The notes beneath the pieces are model-generated. The model worked only from the letters and a program-made list of their open reading frames with translations, did no database searches and had not been told where the DNA came from. A stretch of DNA of 64,000 nt, taken from positions 62,001 to 126,000 of the forward strand of contig NZ_JAJAPB010000003.1 in NCBI RefSeq assembly GCF_026226615.1, in the 5' to 3' direction. This DNA is from Geovibrio ferrireducens. GTDB taxonomy: Bacteria; Chrysiogenota; Deferribacteres; Deferribacterales; Geovibrionaceae. Positions 50,350-58,472 of the stretch are shown in pieces. A program made the position numbers and the translations under genes. The first letter of the stretch is position 1; each line of letters begins with the position of its first letter.

Positions 50350-53300
50350 TTATTCAGCGCTGGCAGCTTCCTGAGCCTTCTGTTTTTCGAGATCACTTTT
50401 CTTAACATCGTCCAGCGTTCTCTTTTCTTCTACAGTTATGAAGGCTTCGATTACGTCGCCTTCCTTAAGATCGTTGAATTTCTCTATGCCGATACCGCAT
50501 TCATATCCGGCAACAACTTCCTTCGCATCGTCCTGAAAACGTTTGAGAGAAGATATTTTGCCCTGATACAGAACAATGGAGTTTCTGACAACACGGACAC
50601 CGGCTGTTCTGAGGAGTTTACCGTCGGTAACGTATGAACCGGCGATTTTTCCTATTTTCGGAACAGAGAATACCTGTCTGACTTCCGCCTGACCGATAAT
50701 CTGCTCTCTGAGGTTCGGATCGATCATACCTTCAAGCGCCTGTTTAACGTCATCCACAATCTGGTAGATTACGGAGTAAAGGTTGATGTCCACGCCTTCC
50801 TTTTCCGCCTTTTCTCTGGCTTTCGCATCCGGTCTTACGTTGAAGCCGAATATGATACCGTTTGAAGCGGCAGTGAGGATAATATCGTTTTCGTTGATAC
50901 CGCCCACTCCTGAGTGGATGATATTAACTTTGATTTCAGTGTTCGTAAGCTTATTAAGCGAGTTTTCAAGAGCCGCCAGTGAACCCTGAACATCAGCCTT
51001 AAGAACTATGTTAAGCTCTTTCAGCTCGCCTTCCTTAATTTTTGCGAAAAGGTCGGTAAGAGAAACTTTTGTTTTCTCCATGAGCGCTTTTTCACGTTTG
51101 TTATCAGCCCTGAGTTCTGCAAGCTGTTTTGCCACCTTTTCATCAGGCGTAACAATGAACCTGTCGCCGGACTGGGGAACATCGGAAAAGCCCATTATCT
51201 CAACAGGTATAGACACACCCGCTTCCTTAACAGACATTCCTTTATAGTTGAACATAGCCCTTACTTTGCCGTACTCAGTACCGCATACAAAGTTGTCGCT
51301 CTTTTTCAGGCTTCCGTTTCTGATAAGTACAGTCGCAACCGGACCTTTCTGCTTATCAAGCTTGGACTCGATGATAATACCTTCTGCCGGTCTGTTGGGA
51401 TTGCCTCTGAGATCCAGCATTTCAGCCTCAAGCAGCACTCTTTCAAGCAGGGTATCTATGTTCAGGTTCTTTTTAGCTGATATTTCCTGAAACTGGTGAT
51501 CGCCGCCCCATTCTTCGGAGATTATACCGAGATCAGCAAGCTGACGCTTTACCATATCAGGGTTAGCGTTTTCTTTATCTATCTTGTTTACCGCAACGAC
51601 AATCTTAACGCCTGCCGCTTTGGAGTGGTCAATTGCTTCCTTGGTCTGGGGCATAACGCCGTCATCCGCAGCAACAACAAGGATTACTATATCCGTAACC
51701 TGCGCGCCTCTTGCACGGAGAGTGGTGAACGCCTCGTGACCGGGTGTATCGAGGAAAACTATTTTGCCGTGGTCAAGCTCAACTTCATACGCACCGATGT
51801 GCTGCGTAATCCCGCCCGCCTCTTTTTCCGCAACGGATGTTCTCCTGATTGCGTCAAGAAGCGATGTTTTACCGTGGTCAACGTGTCCCATAACAGTAAC
51901 GATGGGGGGACGGGGAATCAGATCTTCAGGCTTGTCTTCCACAGTGGGGAGAAGATCCTCCTCCGTAACCACTTTGGTTTTGACATCTATGCCGTATTCA
52001 GCAGCAAGAAGAGATGCTGTATCGGCATCCACCGCCTGATTCACGGAAGCCATAACGCCGAGGCTGAGAAGCTTTTTAACAAGCTCTGTCGCCTTCACCG
52101 CCATAAGTTTGGCAAGGTCAGAAACTATGATGTTTTCGCCTATTTCCACGCTTGAAGGACGCACGATAACCTTGGCTTCCGGTTCCTGACGTCTTCTGCG
52201 TTTATCGGGTCTGGGTCTTGAAACCTGAGGCTTTCTTTTTACAGTCTCGGCCTCTTCTTCCTCTTCCTTAACCGCAACGGGAGCAGCCTGAACCACACTC
52301 GTATCTATTATTTCATGCTCAATGGTAAGCTCGTCAAACCCTTCCGCAACTGTTTTGTGGAAGCTTTTCGGTTTGTCGGACTTTTTAACCGGCTTTTTCT
52401 TAACCTCAGTCTTCTGAGGCTCCGGTTTATCTTTTATCTTTTTCTTTATCTCAAGCTTAATTTCATCTTTCGGGGTTGTCCCGGTGTTCTGAGAGGGTCT
52501 CTGCGGACGGCGGTCACCGTACTGCGGCCTGTCGCCCCTGTCTTTATCCATGGGTCTTCTGTCCCCGTACTGAGGTCTGTCGCCCTGCGGACGGCGGTCA
52601 CCGTACTGGGGTCTGTCGCCCTGAGGTCTTCTGTCGCCATACTGCGGTCTGTCACCCTGAGGACGGCGGTCGCCATACTGGGGTCTGTCACCCTGAGGTC
52701 TGTCACCTTGGGGTCTTCTGTCGCCGTACTGCGGTCTGTCGCCTCTGTCATTGTTATACTGAGGTCTGTCGCCCTGAGGCCTTCTGTCACCGTACTGAGG
52801 TCTGTCGCCCCTGTCGTTGTTGTACTGGCGCTCGCCCTGCGGTCTGTCACCCTGAGGACGGCGGTCGCCGTACTGAGGTCTGTCACCCTGAGGTCTTCTG
52901 TCGCCGTACTGCGGTCTGTCGCCTCTGTCATTGTTGTACTGGCGCTCACCCTGAGGTCTGTCACCCTGAGGACGGCGGTCGCCGTACTGCGGTCTGTCGC
53001 CCTGAGGCCTTCTATCGCCGTACTGAGGCCTGTCGCCCCTGTCATTGTTATACTGACGCTCACCCTGAGGTCTGTCACCCTGGGGTCTTCTGTCGCCGTA
53101 CTGAGGTCTGTCATTTGAATCGGGTTTTGCTGCGGGTTTTTCTCTCTCTTCATCCCGCGACGGCAATTCCTTTTCCTGCTGAAGCATTTTTTCTCTCTCA
53201 CCTTGTTGACGGCCTTCAGTAGCAGGTTTAGCAGCCTGAGCCGGGCCGGCAGATATGTTGTCCTGAGATTTTTCGGTCGGAGCGGAAGTTTTTTCAAAAT

Positions 53301-56320: not shown

Positions 56321-57481
56321 TTATATGCTGTAAACAGTGCAGTTTTTTTCCGACAGTTTTTCGAGAAGCCGCGCAGGAACCGAAGCATCCTCACAGCCGT
56401 GTCCGCCCAGATGTATTCCGGGCTTGATCCTTTCACCGTGAAAGTCGCTTCCTGCTGTTGCAATAAGGTTTTTTTCTTTCGCAAACCGGAGATACTCCGC
56501 TCTTTGCTGCGCATTATGATATGTGGAATATATCTCAATCCCTTCCACTCCGTCTATGAAAAGCTCCATGATTTTGCCTTGCGGGTAAAGCCCCGGATGC
56601 GCCACAGACAGTACAGATTTATCTGAAAGCACGGCAACACATTTTCGGTAATCAAGCAAACTCACATCAACATAGGCTCTGCCGCCTTTAAAAAAGTAGT
56701 CGAAATAGAAATTGGTATATGGCGAGCCTGATTTAGCACCGCTGAGATAAGGTTCAAGCTCAGGAAGATTTTCCTCATACTCCGCCAGCACCCGCAGAAA
56801 TGTCACGCCCGAAGGGGTTTTCCCTGCGGCGGCTTCAATAACCCTGTCAAAATCCACTTTCATACCTATGCTCCTGAGCTTATCTGTGCGCAGCCTCGCC
56901 TGATTCAGCCTGTTTGCGGCAAATTCATCCAGAAGCGCTGCCAAGTCACCGTCATCAGGATCTATGCCGTAAGGAATAAGGTGTATTTCCGTATCATCGT
57001 GATAAGTTGAAAGCTCCACAGCGGGGATAAACAGAGTGCTTCCGTCACCGTCCCTGAAAGAAAGCATTTCGCGCACGGAGGAAACAGTATTGTGATCTGT
57101 TATGGAAAAAAGAGAGTAATCACGTGAACGCAGAACGGCGTATACATCCAAAGGAGACAATACACCGTCCGAACTGTGACTGGTGTGTATATGCAGGTCG
57201 AATTGATGGATAGTTCGCAGATCGGGACATCCTGTCCGGCTGCTCACACGCTCGCGGCGGGATAAACCCTCCTTCGCTTCGCACGGCGCAACCCCTTCCA
57301 TGGGGTTGTGGGACTCAGACTGATGGATAGTTCGCAGACCGGGACATCCTGTCCGGCTGCTCACACGCTCGCGCCGCTTGGAAAGCGGCTTCGCTTCGCA
57401 CGGCGCAACCCCTTCCTTGGGGTTGTGGGACTCAGACTGATGGATAGTTCGCAGATCTAGACATCCTTTACCGCTTCGCAA
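56321..57481 (-). CDS. PHP-domain phosphoesterase with repeat-derived N-terminal insert
   Basis: 386 residues if initiated at the TTG at 57481, which has AAGGAG 6 nt upstream. The catalytic domain starts near 'FDLHIHTSHSSDG' (metal-binding DxHxHT) and shows 'ITDHNT' and 'TAGSDFHG', fitting the TrpH/RNase AM-like PHP group. Preceding it are two 39-codon units, each starting 'LRTIHQ', created by in-frame 117-bp palindromic repeats. Compared with relatives, which normally start at M-x-DLHIHT, this 78-residue insert is abnormal. A later start in the last unit (GTG near 57246) would avoid it. Confidence 0.8.
   Translation of the reverse strand: MRSGKGCLDLRTIHQSESHNPKEGVAPCEAKPLSKRRERVSSRTGCPGLRTIHQSESHNPMEGVAPCEAKEGLSRRERVSSRTGCPDLRTIHQFDLHIHTSHSSDGVLSPLDVYAVLRSRDYSLFSITDHNTVSSVREMLSFRDGDGSTLFIPAVELSTYHDDTEIHLIPYGIDPDDGDLAALLDEFAANRLNQARLRTDKLRSIGMKVDFDRVIEAAAGKTPSGVTFLRVLAEYEENLPELEPYLSGAKSGSPYTNFYFDYFFKGGRAYVDVSLLDYRKCVAVLSDKSVLSVAHPGLYPQGKIMELFIDGVEGIEIYSTYHNAQQRAEYLRFAKEKNLIATAGSDFHGERIKPGIHLGGHGCEDASVPARLLEKLSEKNCTVYSI
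57205..57466 (+). repeat. Two tandem 117-bp units containing composite elements F and G
   Basis: GATGGATAGTTCGCAG recurs at 57205, 57322 and 57439, exactly 117 bp apart. Element F: hairpin CGGGACA/TGTCCGG with TCC loop (57223-57239), core (57246-57289) and hairpin CAACCCC/GGGGTTG (57289-57308). Element G: CCGGGACATCCTGTCCGG (57339-57356), core and CAACCCC/GGGGTTG (57406-57425). The middle hairpins differ: GGCGGG...CCTCC in F, CCGCTT/AAGCGG in G. Confidence 0.9.
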
Positions 57482-57899
57482 GCAAGTCTCCTTAAACGTC
57501 ATTCTGAACCCGAAGGGTGAAGAATATCAAAAACTGAACAAGCAGGCGGCTTGAGGATTCTTCGTTAAAGATCAGAAAATCCTCCCCAGCCCTCCTTTCA
57601 AAAGGAGGGAGTTTGCCTTTACCGACAATAACATCCCTCTTAACAAGCCAAGATCGTCACTGCGAGGAGCCGAGGCGACGAAGCAGTCTCTTAAAATATA
57701 CTGAGAGATTGCTTCACCTTTCCAAGGTTCGCAATGACATATTAAAACTGATAACCCGCGTTAAACGCTGCAAGGTTCATGTCTGAGTTAATATCGCCGT
57801 ATCTACTTCCTGTGATACGGCTGAAACCGCTCGCGGCGGGATAAACCCGCCTTCGCTTCGCACGGCGCAGCCCCTTCCATGGGACTGCAGGGAAGAATC
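57482..57899. repeat. Repeat-filled intergenic region between the PHP gene and iorB
   Basis: Contains CATTCTGAACCC...GAAGAAT (57499-57526), GGATTCTTCG...AAAATCC (about 57555-57588), a CCCTCCTTTC/AAAGGAGGG palindrome (57592-57610), CACTGCGAGGAGC...GAAGCAGTC (57658-57693) with an inverted CATTGCGAACC... partner (57704-57738), a 42-bp copy of the iorB 3' end (57742-57783), and composite element H (57797-57888: hairpin CCGTATC/GATACGG, middle hairpin GGCGGG/CCCGCC, hairpin GCAGCCCC/GGGACTGC). No complete gene. Confidence 0.85.
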
Positions 57900-57941
57900 T
57901 TAAAACTGATAACCTGCGTTAAACGCTGCAAGGTTCATGTC
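57742..57941 (-). repeat. 42-bp direct repeat of the iorB 3' end flanking element H
   Basis: 57742-57783 and 57900-57941 are identical except one base (CCCGCG versus CCTGCG). Both encode the last 13 residues of IorB and its TAA (DMNLAAFNAGYQF). They are 158 bp apart and enclose composite element H. Confidence 0.9.
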
Positions 57942-58472
57942 AACTGTTTTGGGCGGAACCTTTTTGGAGATCACGGTGCGCCAGAGATCCGCATCAAAGG
58001 GAAGCAGTGCTGCAAGCTTGCCCAGCATAACCATTCCCGCAACTTTTGAGTTGCCAATGGCAGTCGCGGTTTTCATGGCATCTATCTCAAAAACCTCTTT
58101 AAAAGCTTTTTTAGTCTCCTCGGTCTGCTCGGCAGGGTAAGTTTCCTGACCGCCCGCAACAGAAGGGGGATAAATGCGGTATTTGTTTACCACCAGCGAT
58201 GTGTTTTTCCCCGCATATTCGGGATAACGCAGAAACTCCATATTCTCGAAAGAGATAACAATATCTGCCTCACCCACCGGGATAACGGGCGAAAGCACCT
58301 TAGCCCCGATGCGCACATGGGAAACCACGCTGCCGCCCCTCTGCGCCATGCCGTGGATTTCGCTTTTTTTAACATCCGCGTCACCCGCAAGGGCAACATC
58401 GCAGACTATATCGCTTGAGAGAACAGTTCCCTGTCCCCCCACACCTATCATTAATATATTAATATCTTTCAT
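57900..58472 (-). CDS. iorB: Indolepyruvate:ferredoxin oxidoreductase beta subunit
   Basis: 190 residues. POR gamma-type domain; 'GVGGQGTVLSSDIVCD' and 'EIHGMAQRGGSVVSHVRIG' (by part 'HGMAQRGGSVVSHVR') are typical. It pairs with IorA to oxidise aryl-pyruvates to aryl-acetyl-CoA with ferredoxin, part of aromatic amino acid fermentation or biosynthesis in anaerobes. Starts 2 bp after iorA. Confidence 0.95.
   Translation of the reverse strand: MKDINILMIGVGGQGTVLSSDIVCDVALAGDADVKKSEIHGMAQRGGSVVSHVRIGAKVLSPVIPVGEADIVISFENMEFLRYPEYAGKNTSLVVNKYRIYPPSVAGGQETYPAEQTEETKKAFKEVFEIDAMKTATAIGNSKVAGMVMLGKLAALLPFDADLWRTVISKKVPPKTVDMNLAAFNAGYQF

Follow-up and report, generated by a model that had tools for sequence, protein, structure and literature searches.

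The window analysed here (64,000 nucleotides of Geovibrio ferrireducens contig NZ_JAJAPB010000003.1, positions 62,001 to 126,000) encodes iorB and a PHP-family open reading frame on its minus strand. Read along that strand, iorB ends in a 42-nt stretch (S) and is followed by a structured repeat (E), a second S and further dispersed repeats. The two S copies lie in a 45-nt direct repeat (57739-57783 and 57897-57941; 158-bp spacing, 96% identity): the final 42 nt of iorB (57900-57941) recur at 57742-57783 with 41 of 42 positions matching, and the sole mismatch in this pair, which ends at the stop codon, is synonymous (GCA/GCG). Such a match at such a spacing is far beyond chance, so that the near-identical duplication of the iorB 3' end around an element, as claimed in a preliminary description of the locus, is real. 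The 116 bp between the S copies (57784-57899) contain one copy of E with its core at 57851-57867. The features of the locus are as follows:

57900-58472, minus strand: iorB, functional copy, indolepyruvate oxidoreductase beta subunit, 190 aa (from the open reading frame and the C-terminus of relatives)
57900-57941, minus strand: proximal S, the functional iorB 3' end (DMNLAAFNAGYQF and stop)
57784-57899, minus strand: interval separating the S copies, made up of E preceded by about 9 nt of flank
57868-57890, minus strand: H1 hairpin (CTGCAGTCCCATGGAAGGGGCTG; from the sequence and an H1 helix that is 97.6% paired in 24 copies)
57851-57867, minus strand: conserved core linker CGCCGTGCGAAGCGAAG (near-invariant columns)
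57836-57850, minus strand: H2 hairpin (GCGGGTTTATCCCGC; helix pairing across copies)
57796-57821, minus strand: H3 hairpin (GCCGTATC-ACAGGAAGTA-GATACGGC), with an unusual stem also found in G001
57784-57795, minus strand: right tail of E (GATATTAACTCA), ending at the S junction directly before GAC (junction comparison)
57742-57783, minus strand: distal S, a displaced copy of the iorB 3' end (match to proximal S)
57438-57480, minus strand: decayed third E tail, 84% identical to the first unit
57204-57437, minus strand: elements F and G, a tandem pair of E units of 117 bp each, in frame with the PHP open reading frame in which they lie

The C-terminus VPPKTxxxNLxAFxxGY of iorB is common to relatives in Seleniivibrio and Denitrovibrio. 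We also considered that the distal copy, which at first resembled an outer-membrane beta-barrel terminus, might be the end of another gene, but rejected this because a matching pair of its own exists in the congeneric genome G001 and because outgroup iorB proteins share the C-terminus. The segment 57480-57740 belongs to a second family of dispersed repeats (GAGATTGCTTCACCCTTTCAGGGTTCGCAATGAC and TCATTCTGAACCCGAAGGGTGAAGAAT), which is often directly adjacent to E and, in contrast to E, is present in other genera of the order as well. Elsewhere in the window, 52501-53124 has dense short tandem repeats with periods of 36 and 114 bp, both multiples of three, and probably lies in a coding region.

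In this genus, E is an interspersed repeat that is non-coding and non-autonomous, measures about 105 bp (range approximately 95-115 bp) and contains three hairpins joined by near-invariant linkers: H1, linker CGCCGTGCGNAGCGAAG, H2, linker CGCGAGCGTGT, H3 (loop ACAGGATGT or CCATGGATGG) and finally TTATnAAGWC as the tail. Standard pairs fill 94.0% of the pair cells in 24 diverse copies, a percentage somewhat flattered because these copies were picked for well-formed stems, and two-sided changes occur at 20 of 21 pairs; the covariation score of 0.82 compares with 0.20 after shuffling and 0.06-0.14 in slid controls. Among 347 distinct copies, those with a recognisable stem show 64 different 5' arms for H1, 49 for H2 and 74 for H3, and H1 and H2 are paired in 239 distinct combinations. 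Stems read on the E strand contain more G.U than A.C (73 versus 30 in all copies; 53 versus 30 in distinct stems, p = 0.015), and this hints that the transcribed strand may be the one that folds.

We compared three genomes of one genus, G000 (the genome of the window), G001 and G002. The core pattern of E occurs at 116 places in G000 with up to 2 mismatches, and a slightly different pattern has 115 matches in G001 and 312 in G002. When one mismatch was allowed, 7 of 50 genomes of the phylum had any match, and the four of them outside the genus had one or two apiece. An Rfam search of 57000-58000 returned nothing above the gathering score and only two sub-threshold, chance-like matches, on which grounds we dismissed E as a known RNA family. 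A perfect tie of its orientation to the replication strand, as appeared among the matches listed first, was likewise discarded, given that the bias was merely partial in the sampled stretches. Nothing relevant was found in the literature on Geovibrio or Deferribacter repeats.

At the PHP gene, the preliminary description had seen a second host duplication, this time around elements F and G. The 16-mer in question, GATGGATAGTTCGCAG, does recur (57205, 57322 and 57439), but it is the tail of E and not PHP host sequence, because the PHP protein of a related genus (L253) appears to start directly with MLIDLHIH and because the tail (CTGCGAACTAT...), which contains this 16-mer, is seen again behind other copies of E; of the 22 places with an E tail, 10 fall at most 110 bp downstream of an E core. 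What is reiterated at the PHP gene is this tail within a 117-bp tandem unit. The PHP-family frame (56321-57502, minus strand) stays open through both units, each 117 bp being 39 codons, and is also open into E in G001 and G002, so that E, judging from the frames, may supply a translated N-terminal extension of this protein.

The generality of flanking duplication was assessed in a sample of around 2.0 Mb across the three genomes that yielded 200 E loci, 110 of them single and 90 arrays. The 110 bp upstream of E were aligned to the downstream sequence, and scores of at least 14 were counted. Single loci had matching flanks in 41.8% of cases and arrays in 45.6%, as compared to 1.5% when flanks came from different loci, and a first set of 64 loci had given a similar result. 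Duplication of host sequence around E is therefore real, widespread and above chance, the duplication at iorB is an ordinary instance of this general pattern, and an absence of flanking duplications elsewhere, named beforehand as an outcome that would speak against the idea, is not what we see. After removal of matches resembling E or the second repeat family with a motif list, which lets a few E-derived S persist, 69 loci with host S remained (16-85 bp, median 35). S is host DNA and often the 3' or 5' end of a gene: an open reading frame ends inside S at 36 of the 69 loci, mostly as the 3' end of the left gene, by a simple and crude open-frame test that leaves some labels doubtful. Clear examples are the 42 nt of iorB, a 70-nt gene end at C10:24884 and a 49-nt gene end at C2:39854, while C1:26966 illustrates a 5' end (MADILSQEEIDALL on the opposite strand). 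The arrangement is either S-E-S or (S-E)n, and arrays are exact tandem reiterations of [S+E] with a constant period. In another genus of the family, both E copies found are S-E-S (L242 and L244), with duplicated ribosome-binding-site regions as S.

Sister loci without the element carry a single S. The S-E-S-E-S at G002 2296711 corresponds to one S at the orthologous locus of G001, and the S-E-S with partial H1 at G002 117896 corresponds to one S in G000. Among 14 iorB loci compared, E is absent from the 13 that are not in the same genus, and none of these has a second S copy scoring more than 1 point above the null maximum. The comparison of sister loci proposed in the preliminary description thus comes out in its favor, both for E-free sites in congeners and for outgroup iorB loci, and a locus with both copies but without the element was looked for and not seen.

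At its right end, E meets S preferentially at GA. S begins with GA at 20 of 69 loci compared to 7.3% expected (p = 7e-8), and GA lies within its first 4 nt at 35 of 69 compared to 21.6% expected; this pattern was examined after the junctions had been seen, so that the p-values come without a hypothesis fixed in advance. Of 62 loci scored for what follows the last S, 32 lack E sequence there, 24 contain part of an E and 6 an almost complete copy. These second copies are truncated at points distributed throughout E, beyond the hairpins too, which gave no support to our earlier candidate of truncation only at H1.

The two S copies of a locus appear to have kept exchanging sequence. At iorB, G001 shows the arrangement of G000, its S being a version of its own and its E carrying the H3 stem also found in G000, and S copies differ at 1 position within G000 and 5 within G001 but at 10-12 between these genomes; with fewer differences within than between genomes, they evolve in concert. 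A second case is the orthologous S-E-S at C2:278552 of G000 and C1:2131218 of G002, where S differs at 1 position within a genome and 2-4 between and where each genome's pair has its own third-position bases in common. Since S copies track one another within a genome, exchange across the repeat continues, and we infer that its recurrence drives this concerted evolution. In G002, E follows iorB without a second S and its right part matches the E of the PHP gene, as would result from a deletion between the two E loci. G001 has a stretch of approximately 3.7 kb between iorB and the PHP gene (L052, G001:C13:505000-511800) that resembles an autotransporter-like gene and is absent there in G000 and G002. 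Differences between coding S copies are 29 synonymous versus 12 non-synonymous, compared to a synonymous share of 42.5% expected were the displaced S free (nominal p = 0.0002, which is too optimistic because repeated within-array comparisons and a few doubtful frames are counted); manual removal of these leaves around 26 versus 7. This suggests that functional copies keep refreshing the displaced ones, or that the latter had a function until recently, e.g., by recombination with E-free alleles.

The preliminary description had offered target duplication or template switching as the origin of these structures. This was the right pair of hypotheses, since duplications are general and empty sites have a single S, although the PHP gene is not valid evidence for either. 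We tentatively regard template switching at hairpins during replication as the likeliest mechanism, with slightly less than even confidence. The arrival of E beside a gene end would leave a variable host stretch S on both sides: a nascent strand would copy E up to its tail (..TTATnAAGWCA), re-anneal via microhomology at GA 16-85 nt upstream and copy S again. It could then run on into native DNA, giving S-E-S, or re-enter E, giving S-E-S-E and often aborting inside E, and S-E units could subsequently multiply in tandem. Both the polymerase step and the source of E at new loci are inferred parts of this scheme. Template switching or slipped replication is favored by the variable S, the microhomology-like GA junctions, the aborted second copies, the exact tandem units and the shuffled hairpins; the continuous range of S lengths contrasts with the constant stagger that a typical transposase leaves, and the GA excess fits microhomology. 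However, clean S-E-S with a well-defined E tail makes up around half of the loci, for which transposition with target duplication is simpler, the GA preference could equally reflect the specificity of an enzyme, the spread of second-E truncations extends beyond the hairpins, and switching alone leaves the arrival of E at unrelated loci unexplained.

The main competitor is somewhat less probable; in it, E is a miniature insertion sequence mobilized by a putative trans-acting transposase or recombinase with unusually variable target duplications, and arrays form later by unequal recombination. Clean S-E-S at about half of the host-S loci, the conserved E tail, empty sites with one S (as at G002 2296711 versus G001) and the GA preference at the right junction agree with it, and YPAL/RU-2 of Yersinia, which lacks TA termini and duplicates 3-26 bp of its target, is a precedent (PMC2229807). 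It is harder to reconcile with S of up to 85 bp and with the lack of inverted-repeat pairs of at least 12 nt within 57400-58300, and a search for the Y1 family (Y1_Tnp, RAYT, PF01797) gave no matches in any of the three genomes while positive controls matched. Spread through an RNA intermediate, SINE-like, with a structured transcript that is primed where a nick precedes GA and variable second-strand cleavage producing variable duplications, would account for a 3'-junction preference combined with variable S and for the G.U excess on the E strand, as expected of sense RNA. This excess is modest, though, and could reflect a role as mRNA. Reverse transcriptases (RVT_1, PF00078) were found in neither G000 nor G002, and G002 has the most copies; the only one in the three genomes is a 501-aa open frame at G001:C3:114810-115451. 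We therefore dropped a reverse-transcriptase retroelement as such, with two of three genomes lacking the enzyme, and hold the SINE-like route to be improbable. Equally doubtful is a scenario in which E descended by inheritance at each site, no target duplication being involved, and S copies stem from later tandem duplication of [S-E] after which the second E was lost in part or entirely: the partial E at 24 of 62 loci and the arrays at 90 of 200 would follow from it, but 32 of the 62 loci lack any trace of a second E and clean S-E-S exists in another genus too. A bolder reading has the structured repeat multiplying via its own folded RNA or single-stranded DNA, its 3' tail being joined to GA and long variable host gene ends being duplicated, with displaced ends that still exchange with functional ones. 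This seems unlikely to us, and to our knowledge such a mode has not been described for bacterial miniature repeats.

E shares features with several known repeat classes. REPs are single hairpins of 20-40 bp tagged with GTAG/CGTC and tied to RAYT transposases. E shares with REP/BIME repeats the many palindromic copies beside gene ends but has around 105 bp, three hairpins over approximately 93 nt and invariant linkers instead of a single tagged palindrome of 20-40 bp, and a RAYT-driven REP was discounted with no Y1 gene in G000, G001 or G002. Mycobacterial MIRUs and pneumococcal BOX elements are tandem, modular repeats at gene ends like E, a likeness by description. REP clusters can consist of palindromes reiterated together with variable-length flanking DNA (PMC3733652). 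YPAL/RU-2 is non-coding, spans around 100-170 bp with internal inverted repeats, and has filled and empty sites (PMC2229807); likened by description, E also has variable-length flanking duplications and a single copy at the empty site but differs in its three separate hairpins, conserved linkers, S of up to 85 bp and frequent [S-E] arrays. Rickettsia palindromic elements and Neisseria Correia elements can be fused in frame into open reading frames (PMC2229807), which also applies to E in the PHP gene, though those listed bear terminal inverted repeats and none were seen for E. Classical MITEs differ in the same respect (around E, 57400-58300 has no inverted-repeat pairs of at least 12 nt, and the ends of E differ by eye) as well as in their fixed short target duplication, and SINE-like retroelements differ by the reverse transcriptase, which was found in neither G000 nor G002 and once in G001.

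How transposase-free bacterial repeats spread is a long-standing open question, and the hundreds of E copies record their own events in the form of duplicated flanks, empty sites and second passes that were cut short. Their junctions are numerous enough for a direct test of template switching versus transposition. The duplications show how a gene can be left intact by an insertion at its end, and how gene ends can be reiterated and homogenised.
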